IMG/VR virus record: IMGVR_UViG_3300032322_002674
Span: 1 to 64,000 of that record
DNA: 64,000 nucleotides
Origin: a virus
Reading direction: 5' to 3' (one strand)
Part shown: positions 18,711 to 64,000 of the stretch, piece after piece
How positions within the stretch are numbered: position 1 is the stretch's first letter
Layout: each line of letters opens with the position of its first letter
The notes under the pieces: model-generated
The model's input: only the letters and a program-made list of their open reading frames with translations
What the model was told of the DNA's origin: nothing
Databases searched by the model: none
Made by a program: the position numbers and the translations under genes

Positions 18711-19507
18711 ATTGGTAATTTAACTTTTGAAAGAATTTTATTTGAAATATGAGTATATATTTCGGTAGTTTTTACATTTGAATGTCCTGCGATATTAGAT
18801 ATTATTTTTAAATCTGTTCCTGTTTCTAAAAGAGTTGTAAAACATGAATGACGCAGATTATGAATTGATGTTTTATAATCAATATATTTTTTATATATTT
18901 GTTGACAAGATTTTATAGAATATTTTCCTGAATTTTGTCCATTAAATAAATAAACTTTTGGTTTGTATATTTTATAATAATCACGAAGAAGATTTAAAAT
19001 ATTTTCTGATAATGGTACAATTCTATCTTTTTTTCCTTTTGAGTTTAATATATTTATAATCATTCTTTTTGAATCAATATCTTCGATTTTTAAGTTTACT
19101 ATTTCTGAAACTCTTAAACCTACTGAAAAACATAAAGATAATATTGTTTTATGTTTTAAGTTTTTTATATTATTAATTTTTTTAATAATTGTTTCTGAAT
19201 CAATTACTTTAGGTAATTTCTTTTCTTTTAAAGGTCGAATAAAAGAAATTTTATCATATTTTTTATTTAGGACTTCTTTATATAAAAATTTTAGGGAACT
19301 GATTATTTGATTTTGTTGTGAAGATGAAGAATAATTGTAATTTGTAACGTATTCTTGGAAATCAGAAGAATTTAATCTTGTAAATGATTTATTCTGTTTT
19401 TTAAAAAATTCACAAATATAATGTAAATAAATATTTTTAGTATTTTCAGAAAAACCCTTTAATTTCAATTTTTGGACACAAATTTCGTAATAGTTAGTTT
19501 CTTTCAT
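18707..19507 (-). CDS. Tyrosine recombinase/integrase (XerC/D-like)
   Basis: 266 aa from ATG 19507; an upstream in-frame TTG at 19519 is less likely. All catalytic positions are present: Arg in VGLRVSE, Lys in the SKGKKD hairpin, H-x-x-R in IHNLRHS, His in AGHSN and the nucleophile Tyr in EIYTH. It has an N-terminal SAM-like core-binding domain and is the short form common in Bacteroidota. The extra helix insert of integron integrases before HxxR is absent. It lies 0.9 kb from the cassette-like repeats at 20.3-21.5 kb and could act on them, or on genome integration or dimer resolution. Confidence 0.93.
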   Translation of the reverse strand: MKETNYYEICVQKLKLKGFSENTKNIYLHYICEFFKKQNKSFTRLNSSDFQEYVTNYNYSSSSQQNQIISSLKFLYKEVLNKKYDKISFIRPLKEKKLPKVIDSETIIKKINNIKNLKHKTILSLCFSVGLRVSEIVNLKIEDIDSKRMIINILNSKGKKDRIVPLSENILNLLRDYYKIYKPKVYLFNGQNSGKYSIKSCQQIYKKYIDYKTSIHNLRHSCFTTLLETGTDLKIISNIAGHSNVKTTEIYTHISNKILSKVKLPI

Positions 19508-19514
19508 ATTGAAA

Positions 19515-19600
19515 ATCAATTAGTTATGGGTAGTTAGATATATACAATAGTTAGTTGCAATTGCTACATTTGTTTTTAAATTAAACATTTGTGTAAACAT
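19515..19600. other. Candidate recombinase binding or att region
   Basis: Directly upstream of the integrase gene lie two near copies of CAATTAGTTA/CAATAGTTAG, a palindromic GCAATTGC and a direct repeat TAAACATTT. Short repeats beside a tyrosine recombinase often mark arm or core sites. No second att copy is visible, so this is only a candidate. Confidence 0.3.
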
Positions 19601-27632: not shown

Positions 27633-28066
27633 AAAATGATTGGATAATTTTTTGCAATAATATCGTGATAAGTTTTTTTAATATCACCATAATTGTTTGC
27701 AATTGTTTTAAAAATTTCTTTATAATCTTCTAAATTATATATTTCAGTTGTATTATAATCTGTTACTATAAATTTTTTTGTTTTAAGTACATCTGGTTTT
27801 AATATTATATCATAATACTTATAATCCCCTTTACTGAAAAAATGATTTAAAAAATCTTCACTATTGGTTAAATTTTTTAATATAAAACTAACACCCAATA
27901 ATTCACCAAAACCCATTAAATTATGATTTTCAACCGTTAATGTGAAACCAAAAACATCATTACCAATATAAATTTTAACATACCCCTTTTCTTCTTCCTC
28001 ATAGATATAATAGTTTGGTACATTAATATATGTTAAAAATTTTTTTATATTATTATGTAAACTCAT
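27629..28066 (-). CDS. Hypothetical protein, 145 aa (small-gene cluster)
   Basis: Beta-like N-terminal region (K-V-Y/I-K-I-Y-I-G type strands), a Leu/Gly-rich helix near 50-65, and a Lys/Tyr-rich C-terminus. It overlaps dnaJ by four bases, so it is translated from the same message. Function unknown. Confidence 0.55.
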   Translation of the reverse strand: MSLHNNIKKFLTYINVPNYYIYEEEEKGYVKIYIGNDVFGFTLTVENHNLMGFGELLGVSFILKNLTNSEDFLNHFFSKGDYKYYDIILKPDVLKTKKFIVTDYNTTEIYNLEDYKEIFKTIANNYGDIKKTYHDIIAKNYPIIL

Positions 28067-28890
28067 TTAAAATTTTCCAATTCTTTTAGTTTTTTAAATA
28101 ATTCTTTTTCTTTATCGTTTACTTGTTTTGGATTTTTAAGTAAAAGTTTAATATATAAATCACCTGTTCTATAAATTGTTTTAAATCCTTTTCCACCTAC
28201 TCTCATAGTGGAAAAAGGTTCTGATAGTGGTTTAACCTTAACTTTAATTTTTGTTTTATCTAATAAAGTTATTTCATGTTCACAACCTAAAATAAAATCA
28301 GGATATGATAAAGTTAAATTATATCCAATATCGAAACTATTAATTCTTATTAAATTTGGGTGATGGATTTGATTAATAAAAATAAATAAATCACCTGGTA
28401 CTCCTTCACCTTCACAATCATTACCCATACCATTTAAAATCATTTGCGAATCAGTATCAAATCCTTCTGGAATAGTTATTTCTTTTGTAACTGTTTCAGT
28501 TTGAAATAAACCATCAACAAATTTTCTTCTTTTATATTCAACGGTTTTAATGCAACCACTATAAATTTCTTCTAAAGTTAAATATAAATCAATTTTAAGA
28601 TTTTGACCTCTTCTTTGTCTTTTAGTTCTAAAACCACCACCAAAAAATTGATTTATTATATCATCAAAATCAAAATTTCCACCACCCATATTAAATCCAC
28701 CTGAATCATATTGATTTCTTTTTTCATCATCAGAAAGTATTTCGTATGCCTGGGTAATTTCTTTATATTTTTCTTCTGATTCAGGATTTTTATCAGGGTG
28801 ATATTTTTTTGATAATTCCCTAAATTTCTTTTTTATTTCTTCTTTTGAAGAATCTTTTGTAACACCTAAAATTTCATAGGGATTTTTCAT
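28063..28890 (-). CDS. dnaJ: DnaJ-type co-chaperone without zinc finger
   Basis: 275 aa. J-domain at 1-68 with the H31-P32-D33 signature that stimulates DnaK ATPase, a Gly/Phe-rich linker at about 72-95, then the two beta-sandwich client-binding domains of type II J-proteins. The four CxxCxGxG zinc repeats are absent, and the protein is about 100 residues shorter than DnaJ. T4-like phages of other hosts carry similar genes. With ClpCP it gives the phage its own protein-quality machinery. Confidence 0.93.
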   Translation of the reverse strand: MKNPYEILGVTKDSSKEEIKKKFRELSKKYHPDKNPESEEKYKEITQAYEILSDDEKRNQYDSGGFNMGGGNFDFDDIINQFFGGGFRTKRQRRGQNLKIDLYLTLEEIYSGCIKTVEYKRRKFVDGLFQTETVTKEITIPEGFDTDSQMILNGMGNDCEGEGVPGDLFIFINQIHHPNLIRINSFDIGYNLTLSYPDFILGCEHEITLLDKTKIKVKVKPLSEPFSTMRVGGKGFKTIYRTGDLYIKLLLKNPKQVNDKEKELFKKLKELENFK

Positions 28891-32528: not shown

Positions 32529-32536
32529 ATATTTAT
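32529..32536 (+). promoter_or_regulatory. Late-promoter-like ATATTTAT
   Basis: Exact ATATTTAT, 14 bases before ATG 32551; TTGCAG lies about 20 bases further upstream. Confidence 0.6.
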
Positions 32537-32550
32537 TAAAAAAAACATAA

Positions 32551-33987
32551 ATGTTAAAAATTTCTGACATATTAAATGAAATTGTTCAAGAAAATTTAAA
32601 TAAACTAAAAGAAGGTTTAAATCTAACATCTCGTGCTAAAAATAATTTAGAACAAAGGGAAGTATTTATAAAAGATAAATTAAATAAACCGATTGAAGAA
32701 TTAGATTTAAATGTTTTAGAATTAAATTTAAATAAAAATCAATTAGATATAATTGGTAAAAAAATAGTAGATAAATATCCATTTATAGAATATAAAGTTT
32801 TCCCATCCCATTTTCGTGAAAATTTAATAAGTTCAGAATATTATTTATTTCTTTATTTAAAAGAAGATAAAGATGTTTTTATTAGATTAGATTTATGGAT
32901 GGGTGATAAAAAAATAAGTGATGTTATTAATTATTTTAATAAAAAATTAGAAGAAAATAATTTAAATGAAAATACTGACCCAGCAGTTACAGATATTGCC
33001 AGAGCAAAAATATCTTTAAGTAAATCCAAAGATATTTTAAGGGATATGGGGGTTAATTTCGGTCAAGGAAAATGTTCTATACCAATTGGTTATAGTGGTG
33101 ATTTTTTTATGAATTCTTATGTTAGATTAATAAAATATAATGATATTAATAACCCAGTATTAACCCCAGGTAGTCAAAAATCACAAGATACATATAGATT
33201 ATTTGGTTCTGCATTAAATTTTTCTAATGTAAATGTTAATCAAAATCAACAACCCAATGGTGGTTCTCAAATAACATTATCTGGTGTTACTTTTGAATTT
33301 CAAGGTAATATGTGGGGAAAAATTAATAATAAAAAAGTTTGGTTAGATAACAAAGGAATCGAAGTTAATAATACAGTTTCAAATATATTGAATAGTATGT
33401 ATATAACAAATGAATCTAAAAATAAATTTTTAACATATAATAATATTGATTATGTAAAAACAAATATTGGTTGGGCAACATATAATAGAACAACTGGTAA
33501 AAGTGGTATGGTTATCACTAAAAAAAATAATGTACAACCAAATCAAACAACATTAAATAATGAATGGTTTAAAATTAATCCAATACCTAAAAATTATTCA
33601 TTAAAATATAATGGTTTTGATTATAAATTTGGTGAAGTTAAAAAAATTCAATCACCTTTAACTAAAAATTTAAATCAACAACTAACTAATGAATGGTTAA
33701 AACAAAATTCACAAAATCAAACCAATCAAATATCAAATGTAACTGTACTTGATGATATTTCAATAGAAAGTACAAAAGAAAAATTAGTTAATTGTGAAAT
33801 AGAATTTTATGAATTTGATTCTTCTTTTTTGAATAAACCTTTGCAAAAAGGATTTAGACCAAGAAAATTAACACCAGGTTCTTTTATAAAATGTAAAACA
33901 AATTATTATATAAAAATTTTAAAATCTTATCCCAAAATGAATAATTGTGAATGGGGTGTGATTTATATAACCCAATTAGAAATTTAA
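32551..33987 (+). CDS. Virion protein with one SRA module, 478 aa
   Basis: Residues 1-21 form an amphipathic leader ending L19-K20-E21, followed directly by G-L-N-L-T-S-R-A (SRA at 27-29) and L-E-Q-R-E-V-F-I. This is the module head found five times in 40458-43196 and once in the fusion at 62103. The rest is Asn/Gln-rich with repeated Trp-containing strands (M-W-G-K-I-N-N, residues 250-330). First gene of a two-gene late operon with the tape measure gene. Function unknown; a tail or internal head protein is likely. Confidence 0.65.
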   Translation: MLKISDILNEIVQENLNKLKEGLNLTSRAKNNLEQREVFIKDKLNKPIEELDLNVLELNLNKNQLDIIGKKIVDKYPFIEYKVFPSHFRENLISSEYYLFLYLKEDKDVFIRLDLWMGDKKISDVINYFNKKLEENNLNENTDPAVTDIARAKISLSKSKDILRDMGVNFGQGKCSIPIGYSGDFFMNSYVRLIKYNDINNPVLTPGSQKSQDTYRLFGSALNFSNVNVNQNQQPNGGSQITLSGVTFEFQGNMWGKINNKKVWLDNKGIEVNNTVSNILNSMYITNESKNKFLTYNNIDYVKTNIGWATYNRTTGKSGMVITKKNNVQPNQTTLNNEWFKINPIPKNYSLKYNGFDYKFGEVKKIQSPLTKNLNQQLTNEWLKQNSQNQTNQISNVTVLDDISIESTKEKLVNCEIEFYEFDSSFLNKPLQKGFRPRKLTPGSFIKCKTNYYIKILKSYPKMNNCEWGVIYITQLEI

Positions 33988-33989
33988 TT

Positions 33990-36479
33990 ATGGCAAATAA
34001 CCCTTTTAATAAACAAGACATTGAAAAAGAAATTGAAAGACTTAAAGAATTGGAAGAAATAACCAAATCTATTAATGGTAATTTAGGTCTTTGGGTTAAA
34101 TCTTATGGTCAAATTAATAAAATTCAAAAGGAATTAAATAAATCACAAGATACAATAAATAAATTAAAAGAAGAAGAATTAAATACTACTGACCAACAAA
34201 GAAAATTATTATTACAAGGTGTTATAAAAGAATTAGAAAATGAATATTCATTAGTTGAAGAAAAATTAAAATTAATAAAACAAGAACGTAATCTTCAAAG
34301 AGCAATACAAGGTGAAATAAAAAAAAGAACTAAAGAAACATTAGAAAGTGTTGGTGAAACCACAAAACAATATGTACAACAAAATTTTTCAGTATCATCA
34401 ATTTTATCTTATTTAACAGATATTGATTCACAAATAAGAAAAACCAATCTTGCAATAGGTGGTGGTGAGGAAGGATATAATAACATAAGAATTTCATTGG
34501 AAGAATCTGCAGGATTTTTAAGTAGAATTGGAGTTTCTTTGGCAGATGCGGCACAATTTCAAAGAATAATTACTGAACAAACTGGTAGGCAACAATTTTT
34601 AAATAGACAAAATGTTGAATCAATTGCATTAATGGTTCAAGGAACAGGTTTACAGGCAGAAATGATTGGTGAAATTGTTGCTGGAATGGAATTATTTGGC
34701 AGGGGTATTAATTCAACAAAAATGTTTATTGAGGAAACCCTTAACATGTCAAATGAAATGGGTTTAAATGGTATTGCTGTAACCAAAAAAATTGGTGAAA
34801 ATCTTAAAAAGGCACAAGGTTTCTTTTTTAAACAAGGTCAAGATAAAGGATTACGTAACATTGTTATGTTATCTGAAAAATATAGAATGAATATACAATC
34901 TGCATTAGGTTTTGCAGAAAAAGTACAAACTGTTGAGGGTGCAGTAGAAACTGCAGCACAATTACAAGTACTAGGTGGTTCTTTTGCTCGTTTAGGTAAT
35001 CCTTTTGAACTTTTATTTAAAAGTAGAAATGACATAGAAGGATTTGTTGAATCTTTGGTAAAAACTAATGACCAAATTGCAACTTTTGATAAAAAATCAA
35101 AAACATTTAAAATAAGTGCTCTTGAATTACAAAGATTAAAATCAATTGCAGAAGTTACTAGTATCCCTTTTGAGGAATTAACTGAATCTGCATTAAAATT
35201 TGCTCAACTATCTAAGGCATCATCTCAAATTAATTTTGGTACTAAAAAAGATAGGGAAATGATTGCCAATATGGCAAAATTAAATGAAAAAGGTGGGTTT
35301 GATGTTACATTTGAAAAGGGTGGAGAACAAGTTACAAGAGCAATTGAACAATTAACAAGTGCTGATTTGGGTTATTTAAAACAAACACAACAGTCTTTGA
35401 AAGAAAGAGCAGAACAAGCAATGGGTTTTGATGATACATTAAAATCTGTTACAGAAGAATTAAAAGCAACACTTTTACCACTTTTAAAAGGTATTAATGA
35501 AGCATTAATTTCCTTTAGAAGTTTTAGAGATTCACTTTTTGGTGAAGATGGTGATAGTTTTGCAAAAAAAATAATGATGGGTGGTTTACTTATTGCAGGG
35601 GTTGCTCCAGTATTATTATCTTTTGCATCAGTATTTTTAAGTGGAATTGGTAGATTAATGGCAGGTGGATTATTAAATAAGATGGGTTCTGCAAGTGCAA
35701 TGTCAACTGCAACTACTTTGGGTAAAGGTGGAATATTTTCATCACTTTTTGGTGGATTAAGTGTTGGTAAAGGTATTGCATTAATTGCTGGTGTAAGTGT
35801 TGCTATAATTGGATTATCTTATGCCTTTAAAAGTTTGGGTGATGTTAATTGGGGTAATATTGATATTGGTAAACTTGGGGGTCTTATGGCTGGTGTAGTT
35901 GCTCTTGGTTTTGCAGCTGCAAAACTTGGAGTTTTAATTAGTGCTTCTGGGGGTGGTGTTTTTGGAATAATTGCTGCAGGAATAGGAACATTAACCTTAT
36001 TATCACTTCCAATATTTACTTTCTCTTATGCATTAAATTCTTTAGGTGATTCTTTTAAAAATTTATCTATGGGAGTTAATTCTATTGATACAACCAAATT
36101 AAAAGATGTTTTATCTTCTATGGGTGATGTATTATCACAATCAACAAAATCTTTTGGTTCTGCAATTACTGAATCTTTATTTGGTAATAAAATAGAAGGT
36201 GTTGTTCAACCAATTGTGGAATTAAGTAAAATTGATAGTGAAAAACTTAAAGTAATTTCTAATCTATTTGCTCAATCAAAAGGAAAACCTTTAGTTGTTA
36301 AAGTAACTGATGATATTAATATCAAATTTGATGATTTAAAAATCAATATTAATGGTGAAACAAGTGTTGTAAATAATTCTAAATTAAGGGAAAATATTAA
36401 AGAACAAGTAATTCAATCACTAAATGATGCATTTTATACAAATAGAATATCTGTTCCTTCTTTAAATGGTAGAGGTTAA
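33990..36479 (+). CDS. Tail tape measure protein
   Basis: 829 aa from ATG 33990; in-frame codons further upstream overlap the previous gene. Residues 1-110 are coiled coil (Lys/Glu/Leu heptads), 110-480 helical and Gln-rich, and about 530-740 hold several Gly/Ala/Ile hydrophobic segments, as in tape measure proteins that enter the host membrane on DNA ejection. T4 gp29 is 590 aa, so a longer tail is expected here. No lysozyme or peptidase domain seen. Shares a TTAA stop with the converging 68-aa gene. Confidence 0.78.
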   Translation: MANNPFNKQDIEKEIERLKELEEITKSINGNLGLWVKSYGQINKIQKELNKSQDTINKLKEEELNTTDQQRKLLLQGVIKELENEYSLVEEKLKLIKQERNLQRAIQGEIKKRTKETLESVGETTKQYVQQNFSVSSILSYLTDIDSQIRKTNLAIGGGEEGYNNIRISLEESAGFLSRIGVSLADAAQFQRIITEQTGRQQFLNRQNVESIALMVQGTGLQAEMIGEIVAGMELFGRGINSTKMFIEETLNMSNEMGLNGIAVTKKIGENLKKAQGFFFKQGQDKGLRNIVMLSEKYRMNIQSALGFAEKVQTVEGAVETAAQLQVLGGSFARLGNPFELLFKSRNDIEGFVESLVKTNDQIATFDKKSKTFKISALELQRLKSIAEVTSIPFEELTESALKFAQLSKASSQINFGTKKDREMIANMAKLNEKGGFDVTFEKGGEQVTRAIEQLTSADLGYLKQTQQSLKERAEQAMGFDDTLKSVTEELKATLLPLLKGINEALISFRSFRDSLFGEDGDSFAKKIMMGGLLIAGVAPVLLSFASVFLSGIGRLMAGGLLNKMGSASAMSTATTLGKGGIFSSLFGGLSVGKGIALIAGVSVAIIGLSYAFKSLGDVNWGNIDIGKLGGLMAGVVALGFAAAKLGVLISASGGGVFGIIAAGIGTLTLLSLPIFTFSYALNSLGDSFKNLSMGVNSIDTTKLKDVLSSMGDVLSQSTKSFGSAITESLFGNKIEGVVQPIVELSKIDSEKLKVISNLFAQSKGKPLVVKVTDDINIKFDDLKININGETSVVNNSKLRENIKEQVIQSLNDAFYTNRISVPSLNGRG

Positions 36480-39963: not shown

Positions 39964-40461
39964 CTAAAAATATTTTATTGAATAGACAATTCTTTTTAAT
40001 TGTTCTTTTCTAAAATCATTTCTAATAATTCCTTTCATTTTATTTTTTCTTTTATGTGGGTATTTTACATAATTAAATGCATCATTATAATTCATTTCAG
40101 TATTCTCAACTATTTTTTTTATTCTTTCTTCACCTGCATTAGATTTTTCTTTTTTAACCATTAAAACATATTCTTTTATTTTATCAGAAAAAATATCATA
40201 ACCGTTAAAAAGAGTTTGTAACCTATCTATAAAAAATTCATTAAAATAAACTTTTTTGTTTCCATCAGTTTGTGGTGAAAAATTTATTGTATCAGGATTA
40301 ATATTCTTTATGAAATCATTAATTATTTTATATGCAGTTGCAGTTGAACGAACCGTATAAAACTATATAATAAAATATAGTAATTTCCTAATTCTTTCAT
40401 TCACATAATGATTTAAAAATTTATCTTCACTAATAATATTTTTAATAAATTCTATTGTCAT
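39964..40461 (-). pseudogene. Phage protein of 165 codons interrupted by one in-frame TAG
   Basis: ATG 40461 overlaps the stop of the 912-aa gene as ATGA, a strong sign of a true coupled start. The frame reads 32 codons, meets TAG at 40363-40365, then stays open for 132 more codons to TAA at 39964. Codon use after the stop is like that of real genes, ending in a basic segment Y-P-H-K-R-K-N-K-M-K. An internal ATG at 40161 gives a 65-aa fragment. Either a recent nonsense mutation, readthrough or a base-call error. Confidence 0.6.
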
Positions 40462-43196
40462 AGATTATTTTTTATTCCTCTTGATGTTGTTGGAACTTTG
40501 TCAATACCTAATGATGGTTTAACCATTTTATTTTTATCTTTTGTATGTGTTTTTTTAAACTGATTATCCAAACCTATATCATATAGGGTTTCTTTCTTTT
40601 TATGTATTTGACCTCTGTATTGATTTAAAATATTTTCAATCCAACTTTTCATTTCCAATCCACCTGCAAGATAAAAATCAATTCCATCATTATTTTTGTC
40701 AAAAAAGTTTTTTAACCTTTTAATTTCATAATAAGAAATAGTATTTTGATTTAAAAGGTAGTTTGAACGTTTTGATGACATTCCATATTCTTTTTGGTAT
40801 TTTTTTATTTCTTCTTTAACAAAACCAGGTATTACAAATTCTTTTCCTTCTAATTCAGAATTTGTTTCATTAAGTTTACCAAAACTATCATATTTTGAAT
40901 TATCATTTTCTTCATATTCTTTCATTTTTTCTAATGCATCACCTAATTTATTAAATCCATGAAATGTTGGTAAATTTGGGTGTACTAAAAGTATATCGAA
41001 ATGACTAAATCCAATAAATAAATTTTTCAAATAATCAGAATATATTATTATACTTATTCTATCAAATGTTATAGGGAAATTAATTTTTTTATTTAGTTCC
41101 CTTTCAAATTTTTCTTTTAATTTTTTTAAATTAGTATGATACAACGTAAAAAACCCCAAATCAGATGTTGTAAATTCTTCAATTGGTTTTTTTAAAATCT
41201 GATTTATATATTCTTCCCTTTGTTTTTCTTGTTGTGATGCACGAGATTTTATTTTATCACCTAAACCCTCTTTTATAAAATCATCTTCAATGTTACCACC
41301 AGTCAATATTTTTTCAATATTTTCTAAAGAATCTTTATCTAAATCAAAAGTATCATTATATATATTATAATGTCCTATAATATCCATATCATCATAATAA
41401 AAATATCCATAATACAGAACCCCAACATTAATCCAATCATCATCTTCAAGTGAAGGATTTAATTCTAAATTATCACTTAATAAACCCCTTCTATTTAATA
41501 TTTCTTTTAATTCGTTTTCATAATATTTTATTCTTTTATACCAATATTTAATTTGTTCAGATAATTTAGTTATTTCTTTTCTTTTTTCTTCATTAACAGA
41601 ATCAAATACTTCTTTTATTGGATTATATTCGTCATCCAAAACCATTCCCCAATTACTTTTATTTACTTGGGTTTTATTTATATATTCAATTTTTTGTTTT
41701 AGATTTTGGTTTGCACGAGAAGTTAATTTTAATCCTTCTTTTATTTCCTTTTGTTTAAAAATTCCTTTAAAAGTTTCTTTTTCTCTTTCAATAATTTCTT
41801 TTCCTTTTTGTATTAATTCTTTTATTGTATTTGCACTACCAAAAACTCTAACTGGTTGATTATAAGAAACCCCATTAGATAATGTTCTTCTTTCTATTGT
41901 AGAATAAGAATAAGTTAAATCAGGCAAATTACATCTAAAATTAACATCTTTAAGTTCAAATGTAACTGAATTAATAAATTTACCTTTTAATCCTTGTCTT
42001 TCTTCTATTTCATAATCATAATCACCCATTTCTTTAATTATGAAATCACTTATTTTGTAAGTATATTTTGGGTGGGTATCTAATAAAAAATTATATTCAG
42101 GATTTGATAAATTTTCTAAACCTTTTTTTAATATTTGATTTATATATTCCTCCCTTTGTCTTTCCTGGTCTCCAGCACGAGATTTTAAATTTAATCCCTC
42201 ACTTATATTTTCTTTTTTTAAAAAATCCAATAATTCACCAACAGTTTTAAATTCCTTATATAAAGTTATTTTTAAATTTTCTAATTCAGTTTTAATTAAA
42301 AGAATGAAATCATCCCAAAATTCAATTCTATAATAACCACTATCATCTAATGAAAAAGTAATTTTTGTTATATCATCTCTAAAATCCTTTTCAATTTCAT
42401 GATATGGTTCTTGTTGTAATTTTTGAAGTTTATCAATTATCTTAACATAAATTGGTTTTGCATTATCATCACCAATAAATCTAATTTCTTCTGGTGTTAC
42501 ATCATTAATATTTTTGGATAATATATTTCTAATATATTCTTCCCTTTGTTTTTCTTGTTGTGATGCACGAGAAGTTAGTTTTAAACCTTCATTTATTTTT
42601 TCACTCTCATATTTTATCTCTAATTTTTTTATTTCTTCATAAACCTTCGGTAAATAAAAATTACCTATAAAATCAAAAATTTCTTTGTTTGTTAAATTAT
42701 AATTATATATAATACTATCAATTATTCTATTATATGTTTCAGGTATGTGTATTATACTTTGGAACTCTGTGTCAATGTTTTTTTGTTTATCATAACTTAA
42801 ATGTATTGGAATAACAGGATAATTATCCCAAAAAGGTGTGGCATAAAACAAATATTTGTCATTTTCCCAACTTACAACACCTTCCAAACTATTTTTATAA
42901 ATTTCATAACCTTTATATTGACTTGGTATATTATTATTTATATTACCAGCAAATTCATTATAAAATGATTCTTTTTCTTTTTCATTTAAATCCAAATAAT
43001 CAAGTTCATTATAATATATTACTTGTCCATTATCAAATTTATGTCTAACATATTTTCGTTTTATATCATCTGGTAAAAATATAAAAACTTTTACTGGTAA
43101 ATTAAATTTTTCCTTATTTTTAATTTTATTTGAATAAAATTCTATTGCCTTTAGTTCTTGTTGATTGGCTCTAGAAGTTAGTTTTAAATTACCCAT
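40458..43196 (-). CDS. Five-module SRA repeat protein, 912 aa
   Basis: Built from five modules of 203, 130, 154, 156 and 269 residues. Each opens with (E-G)-L-x-L-x-S-R-A and a Q-x-E-x-Q-R-E-E-Y-I helix; SRA lies at 8-10, 209-211, 339-341, 493-495 and 651-653. The later modules follow I-x-E (201-203, 331-333, 485-487, 641-643), the form cut by T4-type prohead proteases. Module bodies differ. The last 140 residues hold a further helical segment seen in phage virion proteins (S-S-K-R-S-N-Y-L-L, G-G-L-E-M-K-S-W). Probably a virion polyprotein; function unknown. Confidence 0.7.
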   Translation of the reverse strand: MGNLKLTSRANQQELKAIEFYSNKIKNKEKFNLPVKVFIFLPDDIKRKYVRHKFDNGQVIYYNELDYLDLNEKEKESFYNEFAGNINNNIPSQYKGYEIYKNSLEGVVSWENDKYLFYATPFWDNYPVIPIHLSYDKQKNIDTEFQSIIHIPETYNRIIDSIIYNYNLTNKEIFDFIGNFYLPKVYEEIKKLEIKYESEKINEGLKLTSRASQQEKQREEYIRNILSKNINDVTPEEIRFIGDDNAKPIYVKIIDKLQKLQQEPYHEIEKDFRDDITKITFSLDDSGYYRIEFWDDFILLIKTELENLKITLYKEFKTVGELLDFLKKENISEGLNLKSRAGDQERQREEYINQILKKGLENLSNPEYNFLLDTHPKYTYKISDFIIKEMGDYDYEIEERQGLKGKFINSVTFELKDVNFRCNLPDLTYSYSTIERRTLSNGVSYNQPVRVFGSANTIKELIQKGKEIIEREKETFKGIFKQKEIKEGLKLTSRANQNLKQKIEYINKTQVNKSNWGMVLDDEYNPIKEVFDSVNEEKRKEITKLSEQIKYWYKRIKYYENELKEILNRRGLLSDNLELNPSLEDDDWINVGVLYYGYFYYDDMDIIGHYNIYNDTFDLDKDSLENIEKILTGGNIEDDFIKEGLGDKIKSRASQQEKQREEYINQILKKPIEEFTTSDLGFFTLYHTNLKKLKEKFERELNKKINFPITFDRISIIIYSDYLKNLFIGFSHFDILLVHPNLPTFHGFNKLGDALEKMKEYEENDNSKYDSFGKLNETNSELEGKEFVIPGFVKEEIKKYQKEYGMSSKRSNYLLNQNTISYYEIKRLKNFFDKNNDGIDFYLAGGLEMKSWIENILNQYRGQIHKKKETLYDIGLDNQFKKTHTKDKNKMVKPSLGIDKVPTTSRGIKNNL

Positions 43197-43818
43197 TTAT
43201 TAAATTTGTTAATATTTGTTTTTGTTCAGGATTTATTGTTGAAAAATCAAAAGTTTTTAATAAATTATAAAATCCAGCATATAATACATCACCAGATACA
43301 ACATCCATATTACCCATATCAATCATATATTTAAGAGTTCTATGAAAAATTGGTGATTGGTAAATTATATCATTTAATTTTGGTTCTAAACCAATCGTAT
43401 TTTCTTCTTGTTCTTTTAAAATTTCAATAAATTTTTGTTTCTTTATTTCATCCAATTGTTTTTTCTCAAGATTTTGGATTAATTTTTCTAATTCTTTTTT
43501 TCTATTTAAGGATTTTTCAGATGTAGATTTTATTTTATTCAAGAAATTTAATTCAGATTTATAAATTTTTAGGTCAGTTTCTTCACTTTTATTTAAAGAT
43601 TCAGAAATACCCATTGCAGAAATACCAAATAATCCACCCCATGCATACCCACCTTGAAGTGATGGGTCTTGTCTGGATGTTTTTACAAAATCATCTGTGG
43701 TTGATTGAGAACCAGTTTGATTTTGAAATTGATTTGGTTTATCATCCCCATCAATTATTGCTCCATCTTTATCAATCAATTCTTCCAATTCTCTTTTCTT
43801 AAATATTCTTTTTTTCAT
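43189..43818 (-). CDS. Putative virion protein with coiled coil, 209 aa
   Basis: Basic N-terminus, a Gln/Ser-rich stretch to residue 55, a Gly-rich patch G-G-Y-A-W-G-G-L-F-G, then a coiled coil at about 80-150. Overlaps the 912-aa gene by eight bases. First gene of this late operon. Role unknown. Confidence 0.55.
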   Translation of the reverse strand: MKKRIFKKRELEELIDKDGAIIDGDDKPNQFQNQTGSQSTTDDFVKTSRQDPSLQGGYAWGGLFGISAMGISESLNKSEETDLKIYKSELNFLNKIKSTSEKSLNRKKELEKLIQNLEKKQLDEIKKQKFIEILKEQEENTIGLEPKLNDIIYQSPIFHRTLKYMIDMGNMDVVSGDVLYAGFYNLLKTFDFSTINPEQKQILTNLING

Positions 43819-43833
43819 TTCTAATGTTTTTTA

Positions 43834-43841
43834 ATAAATAT
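43834..43841 (-). promoter_or_regulatory. Late-promoter-like ATATTTAT
   Basis: Exact ATATTTAT on the minus strand, 15 bases before ATG 43818. With 43864-43871 it forms a divergent pair, each in its own gene's sense. Confidence 0.65.
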
Positions 43842-46930: not shown

Positions 46931-47785
46931 ATGTTAAATGAAGATTTAGGGAAAGTTGATTGGATAAATAATTTGTCAATAAACATTACTGAACAATTAC
47001 TTGATAATGGTTTAAATAACATGATAATTGATGTTTACAACGACTATATTGATAAAATCTTTATTTCAGTTATAAACAATAATGAAACAACAGGTAAATT
47101 AATTAATAAAGATTTAGGTAAAGATGTTATTATTAATCTAAAAATTAACAAAGATGAAAATCTTAAAGATAAAATAATATCTATATTAAGTCATGAATTA
47201 CTTCATTTTTATGAAAAAATAAAAAAATATAATAAAAACTATAAAAAATATTATGATGTTAGAAATCTTCTTCAATTAAACTACCAATTTAAAAAAAATA
47301 AAATTATAGATAAATTTTTAAAAATGTTTTATCTTTCTTTGGATGAAGAAATAAACGCAAGGGTACAACAAACTTATTCTGAAATTTTTAAATTAAATAA
47401 AGAAGAAATAATAGATTTTATTAAAAATTATTCCCTACCTTTTAAAGATTCTATTGAATTAATTAATTATGATATTAATGAATTAGATGAATTAAGTAAT
47501 GAAGAAAAAGATAATCTATTAAAGTTAGTGAATTATTTGTTTGATTATTTTAAATTAAAAAATAAGTTCACCACATTTAATCAGTTTAAAAAATTCTTTA
47601 CAACGAAAATAAAATTTTCTGGTCAAAAACTTTATAGAAAAATTTTAAAACTCGTTGGTTCAATAATTGTCACTAAAAATGTTAATGAAAATTTAAATTA
47701 TCTTATCTTATTTTATCAAGAAGAATTATTAACAGAAAATTTTAGTCAAAATTTTGTAGATTTTGATTTTTCTAATTGGAACTGA
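46931..47785 (+). CDS. HExxH zinc metalloprotease-like protein B
   Basis: 284 aa. H88-E-L-L-H92 and E139/E140 in D-E-E-I-N-A-R mirror the motifs of 38763-39683 (spacing 51-52 residues in both). The rest is divergent. First gene of a late operon ahead of a neck-like protein and a fibre. Possible virion-maturation or lytic protease. Confidence 0.62.
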   Translation: MLNEDLGKVDWINNLSINITEQLLDNGLNNMIIDVYNDYIDKIFISVINNNETTGKLINKDLGKDVIINLKINKDENLKDKIISILSHELLHFYEKIKKYNKNYKKYYDVRNLLQLNYQFKKNKIIDKFLKMFYLSLDEEINARVQQTYSEIFKLNKEEIIDFIKNYSLPFKDSIELINYDINELDELSNEEKDNLLKLVNYLFDYFKLKNKFTTFNQFKKFFTTKIKFSGQKLYRKILKLVGSIIVTKNVNENLNYLILFYQEELLTENFSQNFVDFDFSNWN

Positions 47786-59800: not shown

Positions 59801-60689
59801 AGACTTTATTTATATAAATCGGTTTTATAAAGATATTGGTGATATTTTGGTTATAAATCCACAAAGTTTAACAAATTTATTTGATAATCCAAAAACACCA
59901 CTTTATTCAATTATATCCAATTTATTATCAGAAAACAAATTGGATTTTCATCCTTTACCTGCATTTATAAATAATTTTAATCCAGAAAATGATAAACTGG
60001 CAAAAGAAATGTTTGGTCAATATAACACAATAGAAAATGTAATAACTGAACCAAAGTTTATTTGCATGTATGTTGGTGGAACTTCAAAATATATTATTAA
60101 TGATAAAGTTGGTAATGTATTCGGTGATTTTTTAAATGATAGTCCAGATAAAATAACCCCTAAAGATTATAATGATGAAATTGAAGTTATAAATTATAAA
60201 CCATTTTCATTTGATGTAGAAATAGGTTCACAAACACAATCACATTTTAAGGATTTACAGTTTGACCAAAAACAATTTAAAGTAACAAATGAATCTTTGC
60301 AAGCACAAGAAAATATTGCAAATTCATCAAATACAAGAAAAGGTTTATTAACAAGTCAATCATTATATTCAGTTTATTTACAATATTCTTATTCTTGTAC
60401 TGTTACTGGATTAGGTAATGCATTAATACAACCATTACTTTATTTTAGAATTCCTAATATTCCATTAATAAATGGTTATTATTTAATTATTAATGTAGAA
60501 CATTCAATTACACCAAATTTTATGGAAACAAAATTCACTGGTGTAAGAATTAGTAATGCAACAATACCTATTGTAAAAAGTTATTTTGAAACATTAGGTA
60601 TAAGTGATTCAAGTGGTAGCAATCAAGATAACGTAAACCCAACAGAAAATGGTTGGATAAAACAATTAAAAGAATTAAATATAGTATGA
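56808..60689 (+). CDS. Large baseplate hub protein with gp27-like ends, 1293 aa
   Basis: The N-terminal 200 residues and the last 150 look like the beta-barrel parts of hub proteins of the gp27 type: D-I-Q-I-K-F, F-L-L-T-I-K-G-Y-Y-G, and near the end P-L-L-Y-F-R-I-P-N-I-P-L-I-N-G-Y-Y. The 900 residues between are Asn/Glu/Lys-rich and specific. T4 gp27 is 391 aa, so this is greatly expanded. It should hold the gp5-like spike. The amidase start overlaps its stop as ATGA. Confidence 0.65.
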   Translation: MNSINPNSIYEEGIPLPENYIIYANLEVKLTKRSILVSDGDGNFSSSQRTFNISFLNSDLSKNEQTTNWTNELINNEKVNDETFGMTDIQIKFDKNNIPRVTIQFVDIRGASLIGQGNNSPYNAFFSLPYPEFLLTIKGYYGKPVTYSLSLLDFSSRYNSQNGNFEITCEFVGFTYAKLTDIPAAYILYAKDINGQPKLDENGEELPYLRDFIENIGTLNEQIDTLKNDETTKEIENLRPILDRIVNWKGEYERGWRNRDFYSNETYIKGNEFWKDLKILNEYGIEFPYTKENFSLRKNRPYTTKQELPPYAFYQNTKITYISGGITIPYLSIELQNQFTTETFEIFKDEKFGEVTKSFQKLIDDINIKLNNNKDIIADKINNLAKKTLGRIPTIKYVFDIILSDTEIFLNKLREVAISAEKENQSRLEIFSGVDSDIPETKKNKNVFPFPAYYIKDEQNNEYKHEYLGNNDKVKQNRNFFPELDFTERFIIFQKNFENTQRQNNLLNPESGWFPISPLESVYYFNGNNPLSPYSNITNVNELLDKIIDRYVILLSSFLSNEGNDRDNLKNELEIQLAKIELSNLLLSFPENSNEFKTLLKNIKTNGFYSKIIERIKLRQVINYNGTDYFVNINPPIIGNLVLDDNIESKILNLDNESVSSNITDNNLNSLISQNLNIFKNNFVSPDRNIVIDDKSKLPRLLLDYKNFIQKPSLINEGKSTFDDNLNPLNLEEINIKKDFYNSVIELENLYGVNGGTSIYFLNNIYKINWEEITNILTNFAGVIELPYFTVLQIGSILWDNFNNNNFNINNIENLFDISYNAIINDLSFYINNREVFINEFLNFDFNEIFTEFFTTQGIDDNNSDFLFFNKNQLIKFKNFLKEKRILINPSYRLWKNPNTELGYYSNNVSFLYQPLIYNRTNESFEIEDILKNAGEIFFRTFESELKTKIDTIEKEQKSNFNELLKEFNDYKLETYNSFKSLYDRWIANTSSDFNLRKDFIYINRFYKDIGDILVINPQSLTNLFDNPKTPLYSIISNLLSENKLDFHPLPAFINNFNPENDKLAKEMFGQYNTIENVITEPKFICMYVGGTSKYIINDKVGNVFGDFLNDSPDKITPKDYNDEIEVINYKPFSFDVEIGSQTQSHFKDLQFDQKQFKVTNESLQAQENIANSSNTRKGLLTSQSLYSVYLQYSYSCTVTGLGNALIQPLLYFRIPNIPLINGYYLIINVEHSITPNFMETKFTGVRISNATIPIVKSYFETLGISDSSGSNQDNVNPTENGWIKQLKELNIV

Positions 60690-61660
60690 GTTTAATACAA
60701 GGATTTCAATATTCTTTAATAGATATAAATAACAATCCAATTGGTGCAAGTGGACAACCAAATGAAAATTTTGGTAGATTATCACCAAGATTTGTGGTAT
60801 TACATTCAACAGGAGGACCCAATTTTAATACAAACTTGGATTTACTAACATCAAAAAAATTACCACCAAAATCAAACACTTATGTTTGTGCTCATTATTT
60901 AATTGGTAATAAAGATAAAGAAAATGGTTTAATATTTCAATTGTTGGATGAAAGATTAAAAGGTGTACATGCAAATAATTTAAATGATTTATCAATTGGT
61001 ATTGAATTAGTTGATAAATTTTATAATAGTTTACCCAATTATGAACCCTTTATTAATGATAATAGGGTTGGGGAATGGTTAACACCAGAAGAATATTTAT
61101 CATGTTTAATATTATGTACAGATTTATCAATTAGATTAGGAATTCCAAGAAAGTATATTTCTTTATATGAAATAAAAAATAATACAAATATTGTATCACC
61201 AAACCCCATCTTTAATGTAAATGATAGAACAGTTTCAGGTAATGGGTCTAATGCAATAGAAAAATTAAAAAAATCTAATTTAAGTGGTTTTATTTTTCAT
61301 AAAGATTTTATAAGTACCAAAAGTGACCCAGTATTTTTTAATGGTGAAAAATTTATAAATGATTTAAATAAAACTTTTATTGTTACAGGTATTGGTTCTG
61401 CACCACAAAATTATTTAAACATTTTTAATGGTATAATTAATGGTAATATAACAGTTGACCAAATAGGGGGTAATCAAACCTTTGAATTACTACCAAATGT
61501 AAATATAAAAGAAACTTTCAGAAAAGTTATATCTATTTTGAAAAATTCAAAAAAAGAAAGGGAAGAATTTGAAAAAACTTTAAAAGTAACTAATACTTTA
61601 ACCAAACAACAACAAAAGAAAGTATATCCAGGAAGTAGTATAAATGATGGTTCTATTTAA
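60686..61660 (+). CDS. N-acetylmuramoyl-L-alanine amidase (Amidase_2 type), tail-associated
   Basis: 324 aa from ATG 60686, overlapping the hub stop as ATGA. Zinc ligands: H40 in V-L-H-S-T, H205 in F-H-K-D and D214 in T-K-S-D-P; A-H-Y-L-I at 69-73 and G-V-H-A-N-N at 93-98 match the active-site loops. It should cut peptidoglycan between sugar and peptide. Its place after the hub gene suggests local cell-wall cutting on infection; lysis is the other option. The C-terminal 110 residues are unassigned. Confidence 0.8.
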   Translation: MSLIQGFQYSLIDINNNPIGASGQPNENFGRLSPRFVVLHSTGGPNFNTNLDLLTSKKLPPKSNTYVCAHYLIGNKDKENGLIFQLLDERLKGVHANNLNDLSIGIELVDKFYNSLPNYEPFINDNRVGEWLTPEEYLSCLILCTDLSIRLGIPRKYISLYEIKNNTNIVSPNPIFNVNDRTVSGNGSNAIEKLKKSNLSGFIFHKDFISTKSDPVFFNGEKFINDLNKTFIVTGIGSAPQNYLNIFNGIINGNITVDQIGGNQTFELLPNVNIKETFRKVISILKNSKKEREEFEKTLKVTNTLTKQQQKKVYPGSSINDGSI

Positions 61661-62081: not shown

Positions 62082-62089
62082 ATATTTAT
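62082..62089 (+). promoter_or_regulatory. Late-promoter-like ATATTTAT
   Basis: Exact ATATTTAT, 13 bases before ATG 62103. Confidence 0.6.
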
Positions 62090-62102: not shown

Positions 62103-64000
62103 ATGCAAAATTCTTGTGGAATCCTTTTTATTTCAAAACCAACAAAAAAAATTGGTTTGGGTTTACGTGCAGATGGTAATAGTCCTAATACTTGGTCAAC
62201 CATTGGTGGTGGAATTGAAGAAGGTGAATCTTTTTTGGAATGTCTAACAAGGGAAATTAAAGAAGAATTGGGAATTGATTTAAACCCAAAATTAATTCCA
62301 ATTGATGATAATGAAAATTATAAAACATTTATTTCTTTTGTTGATTCAGAATTCACACCCACTCTTAATAAAGAACATTCAGATTTTAAATGGTTTGATT
62401 ATTCTGAATTACCCAAAAATATCCATCCAGGACTTAACAAAACATTAACAAAACCATTTGTTCAAAAAGTTTTAAATAAACATTTAAATGAAACCACAAC
62501 TGATGCAAGTGGTAGTTTTGTGGGTACTTTAAATTCACCAATACATAGGGGTAATATTGGGGATTATATAAAAGAGGATTTGGAGTTAAAATCCAGAGCA
62601 AAAGACCAAGAAAAACAAAGGGAAGAATATATTAAAGATTTAATAAATAAAGTGACAAAACCCCCTATAAGGGAAGTTAAATTGGAAGATTTACAGAAAT
62701 TAAAAGAATGGGATATACAAAATGATACAAAATATATAAATGAATTTAATAATAGACTTTTTGAATATTATTATGAAATTGAAAGTTATTTTGATAAAGG
62801 TGTTTTTATTTTAAAAAATGGTGAAAAATTTCAATTACAATACATAACCAATCATTTTTCTTTGGTTACACCTAAATTAAGGGATTATATTAAAGGAAAT
62901 AAATGGCATGATATAGTGTACTTCTCAAACACAAAAGAAATGTTTGAAATATTGGATAAAATAATGGAATCAGTAAATATGAAAGAAAACATAAGTATTA
63001 AAGAAAACATAAAAAATGATGGAAAAAATTATGATGTTATTCATGAAGATGATGATTTATTGGTTATAAATGTTAGAGATGCAAAAACTGCAAAATGTTT
63101 TAGTCAAAATACACAATGGTGTTCACAAAGTAATCCAGGTTTTAGAAATCATTATTTATCAGAAGAGTTACAAAAAGAATATTTTAAAAATAAAGGTTTA
63201 TTAAATGAAACAATTGTAAAAAATAATAATGAATATTGTTTAAAATCCAAAAAAGGAAAAAATTTGGGTTGTTACCCAACAAAATCTGGCGCAGAAAAAA
63301 GGGAAAGACAAGTACAATATTTTAAACACTTAAATGAATATCAGGTTTCACCTGGGGAAACAGTAGAATGGGATTTGGAAAATAATACCACCAAAATTAA
63401 TCGTTTAGATGGTTCTATTGAATGGATTTTACAAAATGAACACCAAACCCTACCTTACTTAGAAAAGTTGTTTAAAACATTAAATAAACAACAAATTATC
63501 GAATTCTCAAAAAGATTATATAATAAATTATCATCTGGTGGAAATAAAAGAAAAATCATAATGATTGGTTTGGTTACTGCAATGATAAATTATGGTATAT
63601 CAAAAGATGATATTCTTCATGAATTTAATAGTTCAGATATTGAACAACTTATTCAAAAAGATATTAAACCTAAAATAGAAAAACAATATAGGGGTGATAT
63701 TAATGATTTTTTAAATCTTCTTGCATTTAAAGAAAGTTCTGGTAATTGGAAAAAAATCAGATATTCTAAAAAAACTGGTAATCCTGTATATATTGGAAAA
63801 TATCAATTTGGTAAAATTGCACTTGAAGATTTGGGTGTTAATCCTGATATTATTTTACAATTTAAAGATAATCCTAATGTATTCCCACCAAAAATGCAAG
63901 ATAATTTAGTTAAAAAATTATTAAATAAAAATAGAAAATACTTGGGTGATAATTATCTTTCTTATGATGGTAAAACTGTTGGTGGTATAAATGTTACTGA
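62103..64000 (+). CDS. Multidomain virion protein: Nudix, SRA module, TQWC domain, lysozyme-like (3' end beyond window)
   Basis: Open for 632 codons to the right edge. Nudix hydrolase at 1-125 with a perfect Nudix box at 36-58 (G36, E42, R50-E51, E54-E55, G57). At 156-158 I-K-E, then D-L-E-L-K-S-R-A (SRA 164-166) and E-K-Q-R-E-E-Y. A phage domain at about 310-400 with A-K-C-x-S-Q-N-T-Q-W-C (C332, W339, C340). At 535-600 E544-S-S-G-N-W and G-K-Y-Q-F-G (565-570) resemble a lysozyme/transglycosylase with catalytic Glu. A nucleotide hydrolase and cell-wall enzyme in one late protein is unusual. Confidence 0.75.
   Translation, partial: MQNSCGILFISKPTKKIGLGLRADGNSPNTWSTIGGGIEEGESFLECLTREIKEELGIDLNPKLIPIDDNENYKTFISFVDSEFTPTLNKEHSDFKWFDYSELPKNIHPGLNKTLTKPFVQKVLNKHLNETTTDASGSFVGTLNSPIHRGNIGDYIKEDLELKSRAKDQEKQREEYIKDLINKVTKPPIREVKLEDLQKLKEWDIQNDTKYINEFNNRLFEYYYEIESYFDKGVFILKNGEKFQLQYITNHFSLVTPKLRDYIKGNKWHDIVYFSNTKEMFEILDKIMESVNMKENISIKENIKNDGKNYDVIHEDDDLLVINVRDAKTAKCFSQNTQWCSQSNPGFRNHYLSEELQKEYFKNKGLLNETIVKNNNEYCLKSKKGKNLGCYPTKSGAEKRERQVQYFKHLNEYQVSPGETVEWDLENNTTKINRLDGSIEWILQNEHQTLPYLEKLFKTLNKQQIIEFSKRLYNKLSSGGNKRKIIMIGLVTAMINYGISKDDILHEFNSSDIEQLIQKDIKPKIEKQYRGDINDFLNLLAFKESSGNWKKIRYSKKTGNPVYIGKYQFGKIALEDLGVNPDIILQFKDNPNVFPPKMQDNLVKKLLNKNRKYLGDNYLSYDGKTVGGINVT

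Follow-up and report, generated by a model that had tools for sequence, protein, structure and literature searches.

Repeated head modules behind predicted prohead-protease sites in proteins of a T4-like jumbo phage: candidate virion cargo polyproteins

The prohead protease gp21 of phage T4 cleaves after L/I-x-E, the motif at which the capsid targeting sequences of T4 (10-19 residues) are also cut, and in T4 IPIII an Asp in place of the P1 Glu blocks processing (PMC9026906). The T4 internal proteins, which join a constant signal to diverse bodies, act as inhibitors of type IV restriction enzymes (PMC12373910). In phiKZ and SPN3US, too, the cuts made in head proteins (by gp175/gp245) follow a short motif whose last residue is Glu, and a single protein may have several such sites (PMC10052503, PMC5694885). 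Besides, polyvalent proteins are large and multidomain, many of them being thought to be packaged and injected, and their ART, kinase and peptidoglycan-cutting domains and NUDIX neighbours are described in those sections of Iyer et al. (2017; PMC5512222) on which we draw here. We report on proteins of a T4-like jumbo phage in which similar heads recur, each internal one behind an (I/L/V)-x-E site. The best explanation, which we consider probable, is that they are virion cargo polyproteins that are packaged and cut by the prohead protease; the term polyprotein, as judged from the sequences, stands for a strong inference and not for a fact.

The phage genome and its head-bearing proteins

The stretch of DNA analysed, hereafter the window, comprises the first 64,000 bases (1-64000) of a virus record of 173,457 bases (G000). 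A further contig, G003 (133,435 bases; metagenome 3300033571), dovetails end to end with the far end of G000 over 6.9 kb with 1 mismatch, and two sister contigs from the same metagenome are 100% identical to G000 over every compared stretch. This overlap and these matches place the protease and the heads in one genome, and G000 and G003 are treated as one T4-like jumbo phage of about 300 kb. By PHROGs profiles, G003 encodes a gp20-like portal (1.6e-59) and a gp23-like capsid protein (3.5e-69), along with a gp18-like sheath, baseplate wedge and gp21-like protease. Over the matched part, identity of the capsid protein is 41% with its counterpart in Flavobacterium phage immuto and 32% with the one in the huge phage LR756508; hundreds of uncultured relatives encode this protein, the best 80 of them at 59-64%. 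The phage also encodes DnaJ, with its J and C-terminal domains (window 28063-28890), and an N-acetylmuramoyl-L-alanine amidase (window 60653-61660), and Rfam and tRNA scans of the 64,000-base window were empty. Repeats of 76-98 bp, 94-100% identical, occur in at least three places of the genome (window 19458-19554, G000 about 166877-168065, G003 about 34610-36035). Three paralogues share the motif YLSLDEEINARVQ (window 46931-47785; G000 70432-71340 and 140915-141745), a Pfam scan of one of the three giving no match, and about a dozen ORFs of about 100 residues form one family (G000 119519-119848 and 119979-120275; G003 20563, 73758, 77116, 113135, 113444 and others), several of which open with M-x-L-N-K-T-I-x-N-L-R-x-S-x-x-S-F-F-N.

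The genome contains 33 SRA/QREEYI heads in 13 ORFs, 31 of them internal and two at the start of their own protein. Eight are carried by a 1410-residue protein encoded directly upstream of the portal gene, and four by a 1200-residue protein. The earlier note on this DNA had described a 912-residue protein with five heads, and one head each in 32551-33987 and in the fusion at 62103 (Table 1). The single heads are indeed there, and so are the five, with QREEYI restricted to copies 2, 3 and 5: copy 4 reads QNLKQKIEYI, copy 1 reads QQELKAIEFY, and copy 5 has a two-residue insertion in its head. The five products envisaged for this chain would probably be six, given the further L-N-E behind module 5. 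In the 912-residue ORF the codon preceding the start codon in frame is a stop.

Table 1. Coordinates of the features discussed; positions are those of the window unless a contig is named.
Feature	Position	Strand	Details
912-aa head polyprotein ORF (putative), five heads	40458..43196	-	heads at about residues 2, 204, 334, 488, 644
Module 1, residues 1-203	42588..43196	-	EYY-class body, native N-terminal head MGNLKLTSRANQQELKAIEFY
Predicted cleavage site I-N-E, residues 201-203	42588..42596	-	
Module 2, residues 204-333	42198..42587	-	REEYI-class domain; AlphaFold pLDDT 82.9, pTM 0.76
Predicted cleavage site I-S-E, residues 331-333	42198..42206	-	in disordered linker
Module 3, residues 334-487	41736..42197	-	REEYI class
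Predicted cleavage site I-K-E, residues 485-487	41736..41744	-	
Module 4, residues 488-643	41268..41735	-	same head, different helical-looking body
Predicted cleavage site I-K-E, residues 641-643	41268..41276	-	
Module 5, residues 644-777	40866..41267	-	REEYI class, head GLGDKIKSRA
Possible further site L-N-E, residues 775-777	40866..40874	-	no head after
C-terminal tail domain, residues 778-912	40461..40865	-	without family match
Upstream 209-aa ORF, same operon as 912-aa ORF	43189..43818	-	8-nt overlap with start of 912-aa ORF
ATATTTAT element of 912-aa operon	43834..43841	-	23 nt before first start codon
478-aa protein	32551..33987	+	L-K-E after a short N-terminal stretch, then a single head module, L-N-E and a 338-aa domain
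Predicted cleavage site L-K-E	32605..32613	+	precedes head of 478-aa protein
ATATTTAT element of 478-aa ORF	32529..32536	+	at -22
680-aa fusion	62103..64000	+	to 64145 in record (145 bases past window)
Possible site L-N-E	62484..62492	+	follows NUDIX in 680-aa fusion
Predicted cleavage site I-K-E	62568..62576	+	precedes head of 680-aa fusion
ATATTTAT element of 680-aa fusion	62082..62089	+	at -21
gp21-type prohead protease (Peptidase_S77)	G003:102527-103228	-	PF03420, E 3e-22

I-x-E or L-x-E, as reported earlier, precedes all six internal heads of the window (INE, ISE, IKE, IKE, LKE and IKE). Genome-wide, P1 is Glu at 31/31 internal heads and P3 is Leu in 18, Ile in 11 and Val in two, Leu or Ile thus accounting for 29/31, while P2 is variable and P4-P20 are near background. 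The motif [ILV]xE occurs at about 0.02 per residue phage-wide and at 0.030 in the roughly 31 residues upstream of the same heads, so that about one would be expected by background at a fixed place, against 31 seen. Because the head copies are homologous, the 31/31 sites represent conservation and not 31 independent events, and the argument for a site rests on the conserved columns, P3 and P1 being kept and P2, P1' and everything further upstream not. The distance from the Glu to the Ser of SRA is 6, 7 and 8 residues in 26, 1 and 4 cases, respectively, with the site whole in each. Both native N-terminal heads, MGNLKLTSRA in the 912-residue protein and MPLNLKSRA in the protein at G003 69664, have starts bounded by upstream in-frame stops and carry Met in place of the P1 Glu, as expected if the free N-terminus matters. 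MPLNLKSRA compares with E followed by GLNLKSRA at internal heads, which means that native heads begin where cleaved ones would. The second native-head protein (G003 69664-71739) matches at its C-terminus phrog_7595 (1e-13), an uncharacterised phage family.

SRAxxQEKQ is common to nearly all heads and the next five residues track the body class, the same head fronting bodies of the REEYI, EYY (LPD-x-IK repeats), GIND and NIDI classes. REEYI modules that precede something other than a head tend to end in [IL]xE (LNE, LNE, INE, LNE and LNE), a tendency that we take as supportive at most, as [IL]xE is frequent; since folded modules contain it several times as well, a cut is not defined by this motif on its own. 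An AlphaFold model of module 2 of the 912-residue protein, made with an alignment of 20 modules, is a compact domain of three helices, four strands and one helix. Residues 1-6 are unstructured, the head forms helix 7-24, followed by helices 32-42 and 44-57, the four strands and helix 116-125, and I-S-E lies in the unstructured tail after this last helix. A two-module model had low confidence (57), with residues 126-141 below 50. The model thus places the head at the front of its own domain, as the first helix, with no bridging of two modules, which speaks against heads that form part of one continuous fold, the outcome named in the earlier note as contrary to its reading. Fold searches of the module in BFVD and PDB gave no match at E<0.001, weak immunity-protein-like matches being set aside.

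In some of these proteins several unrelated domains share one chain. In the 680-residue fusion a NUDIX domain (5e-15, above the Pfam cut-off) is followed by L-N-E with a TTTDASGSF linker, I-K-E with the head module, a further domain and an endolysin- or transglycosylase-like C-terminus (4e-6), and elsewhere an HD phosphohydrolase (phrog_19425, 3e-21) is fused with modules. An RNA 2'-phosphotransferase/ART-like match is weak (phrog_5470, 5e-4), and a kinase-like glycine loop in the 1410-residue protein was read by eye, with no support from the database search. Pfam matches to EABR, XRCC4 and the like were below cut-off and were taken as chance coiled-coil matches.

Distribution of the heads and leaders of relatives

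The earlier note knew of no described family with this head, and module searches of Pfam, PHROGs, PDB profiles and INPHARED agree in giving no match, none being found for the heads in INPHARED even at E 10. Searches of IMG/VR with head alignments, the 1410-residue protein and the leader retrieved contigs of the same phage only, and GTDB genomes contained no heads. Nor were heads found in fifteen relatives identified by their capsid protein, three of which are 251-296 kb long, or in phages immuto and LR756508.

A leader of 14 residues, MKYIITEKQLKLIE or of its type, ends in L-I-E and opens five of the 13 head ORFs, the 912-residue protein and most of the others being without it. Similar leaders ending in [ILV]xE also open ORFs that carry no head, and in the three relatives of 251-296 kb one pattern finds the same leader type on 23 ORFs, 19 of which have [ILV]xE ending at residues 15-24 from Met. 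By their sequence, the leaders ending in L-I-E resemble T4 capsid-targeting sequences, and their occurrence in relatives whose capsid proteins are similar suggests that packaged proteins of this kind form a wider class among uncultured T4-like phages. One relative (G005, IMGVR_UViG_3300044633_000899) encodes about eleven paralogous modules of about 148 residues, with a body of about 130 residues unrelated to the SRA heads. They are mostly free-standing genes, and most lie behind the leader MKIIITENQYKLIKE and then NISLKE; two copies are internal, C-terminal in larger proteins after [IL]xE, and one of these follows an Fe/Mn superoxide dismutase (Pfam 6e-40) at the joint PLNE + SISLKE. These leader-borne modules, free and fused, indicate that the anatomy recurs with another module. 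A fusion at G005 240193-241716 combines a leader-family module with Fe/Mn superoxide dismutase and a peptidase-like region (HEWVHAHQ, by eye). In LR756508.1 (143900-195316), ten ORFs, most of them near capsid genes, carry the leader M-K/R-I/L-x-E-x-K-L-R-x-I-x-x-E-E-I, internally in two. Repeats after [ILV]xE in LR756508 and in a further relative (G006) look to be of structural-protein or transposase type and were rejected as head systems.

Prohead protease, capsid-protein site and a shared upstream element

The protease also matches phrog_207 (5e-36) and T4 gp21 (PDB 5jbl, 1e-11) and keeps GEANHP (GE-x-x-HP) and GVSSRG (SSRG), the His and the Ser being found in the protease of Flavobacterium phage immuto as well. 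The capsid protein carries LINE followed by ATTTDSSGSFETVVFPIVRR near residue 60, that is I-N-E and then A, matching the site pattern, and we take this site to lie close to the position at which the N-terminal 65 residues of T4 gp23 are removed. Moreover, TTTDASGSF after the NUDIX L-N-E of the 680-residue fusion resembles the maturation site of the capsid protein (I-N-E followed by ATTTDSSGSF), and the two are the sole such strings in the ORF set of the phage. As regards membership among the substrates of Peptidase_S77, the protease is thus present in the same phage and L/I-x-E stands at the predicted cut position. The T4-type protease proposed at the outset for these sites gains support from the gp21-type gene in the same genome, the capsid-protein I-N-E and the placement of sites in disordered linkers.

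An element reading ATATTTAT lies 12-30 nt before the start codon in 8/12 head ORFs versus 56/353 others (p 1.7e-4), and is also found at the sheath, portal, protease and core-like genes. Its presence at both head ORFs and virion genes suggests late expression, and it may be a late promoter of the phage; T4 late promoters read TATAAATA.

Explanations of the chains and comparison with known systems

In the mechanism that we favour, virion cargo would be made late as polyprotein chains, which would enter the prohead via the 14-residue leader, of the T4 capsid-targeting kind, or via the head modules. During head maturation the gp21-type protease would cut after (I/L/V)-x-E in the interdomain linkers, releasing about 30 different proteins, most of them 125-200 residues long, that begin with (G/N/S/D)-L-x-L-x-SRA; enzyme domains, among them NUDIX and HD phosphohydrolase, would be set free as separate products too. 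Most likely the products would act in the role of the T4 internal proteins and Alt, as diverse cargo injected with the DNA, and one constant head with fast-diverging bodies would be suited to countering host defences or to host takeover. Since the module bodies have no known homologue or confident fold match, an effector role rests on analogy, and we rate the chances that the modules themselves are injected effectors as about even. We lean somewhat towards a true polyprotein strategy, whereby some 30 injected proteins, each keeping its head, are made in chains with as many as eight heads, which the capsid protease would split only once they are in the prohead.

Packaged polyvalent (multidomain) proteins might instead act uncut, I-x-E being kept through recent copying of the heads or as a helix-capping Glu. 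The heads share rare codons (CGT for the Arg of SRA in 25/33, p 3e-16; TCT in 28/33) as expected of recent descent from one DNA sequence, suggesting that they spread recently within the lineage and that part of their conservation is due to this common descent. In addition, the virion RNA polymerase of phage N4 is packaged unprocessed, according to the polyvalent-protein sections cited above (PMC5512222), and the 42 head proteins without cleavage in SPN3US (PMC10052503) count against cut cargo. However, P1 and P3 have been kept while P2, P1' and every position upstream of P3 have diverged, headless leaders also end in [IL]xE, the modelled site lies outside the fold, native N-terminal heads need no Glu, and a protease is encoded in the same genome; that the chains act whole thus appears improbable to us. 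Cleavage could also occur with disposable head modules, which would be core-binding targeting domains, or long propeptides, for enzymes as the cargo (NUDIX, HD phosphohydrolase, ART-like, kinase-like). Giant phages remove propeptides of 111-254 residues (PMC10052503), constant heads and domains beside unrelated enzymes would fit targeting, and the head modules are the sole shared part found across the 13 ORFs. We nevertheless deem this unlikely, as the 912-residue protein and several small ORFs consist almost wholly of modules, with no recognised enzyme, the module bodies (23-37% identical, in several classes) are unlike a targeting domain, and the separate leaders of 14 residues already look like targeting sequences.

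At the DNA level many heads share 85-89% identity over 49-71 nt and their bodies do not, which, with the shared rare codons and the one head before several body classes, is what would be seen if the head were chiefly a recombination joint, a short conserved DNA for module swapping with no role in packaging or proteolysis. Selection on the protein argues otherwise, the P1 Glu being kept with a varying codon (GAA 17, GAG 9) and P3 staying aliphatic, and such a joint leaves the leaders and native N-termini unexplained. With the codon varying and the residue constant at P1, we rejected the view that a DNA element alone fully accounts for the head, and a chiefly recombinational role seems very improbable, yet recombination at the heads and packaging with cleavage can both hold. 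If packaging and cleavage by the prohead protease are true, many different proteins would be loaded into the phage head in equal copy number from few genes, and the cargo could be extended whenever a module came to lie behind a protease site. As an address label, the head-and-site rule would then help to find cargo, yielding some thirty candidates for injected proteins in one phage and making the question of what a jumbo phage injects testable by mass spectrometry.

With T4 IPI-IPIII and Alt, the proteins described here share a gp21-type protease in the genome, a constant signal with diverging mature bodies and, on five of the 13 head ORFs, short N-terminal leaders ending in L/I-x-E, tentative ART-like domains being among the cargo candidates (PMC9026906, PMC12373910). 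The T4 proteins, in contrast, come from one gene each and lose a propeptide of 10-19 residues, whereas up to eight heads are fused here with sites between them, and the constant head follows the site and would stay on the product; the searches gave no sequence similarity to them. The phiKZ and SPN3US motif reads S/A-x-E or A-x-E, a single mature product is left once the extra cuts have removed propeptides, and no repeated head is described. The family in G005 shares leader-borne modules and C-terminal fusion after [IL]xE, but its module sequence is unrelated and occurs mostly in free-standing genes without tandem repeats. Polyvalent proteins, in the sections cited, are intact chains or are processed by a peptidase domain of their own, and none is described there with repeated heads and interdomain prohead-protease sites (PMC5512222). 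On the favoured reading the arrangement would be a variation on the T4 internal-protein scheme, joined with a polyvalent architecture, plus a new sequence family.
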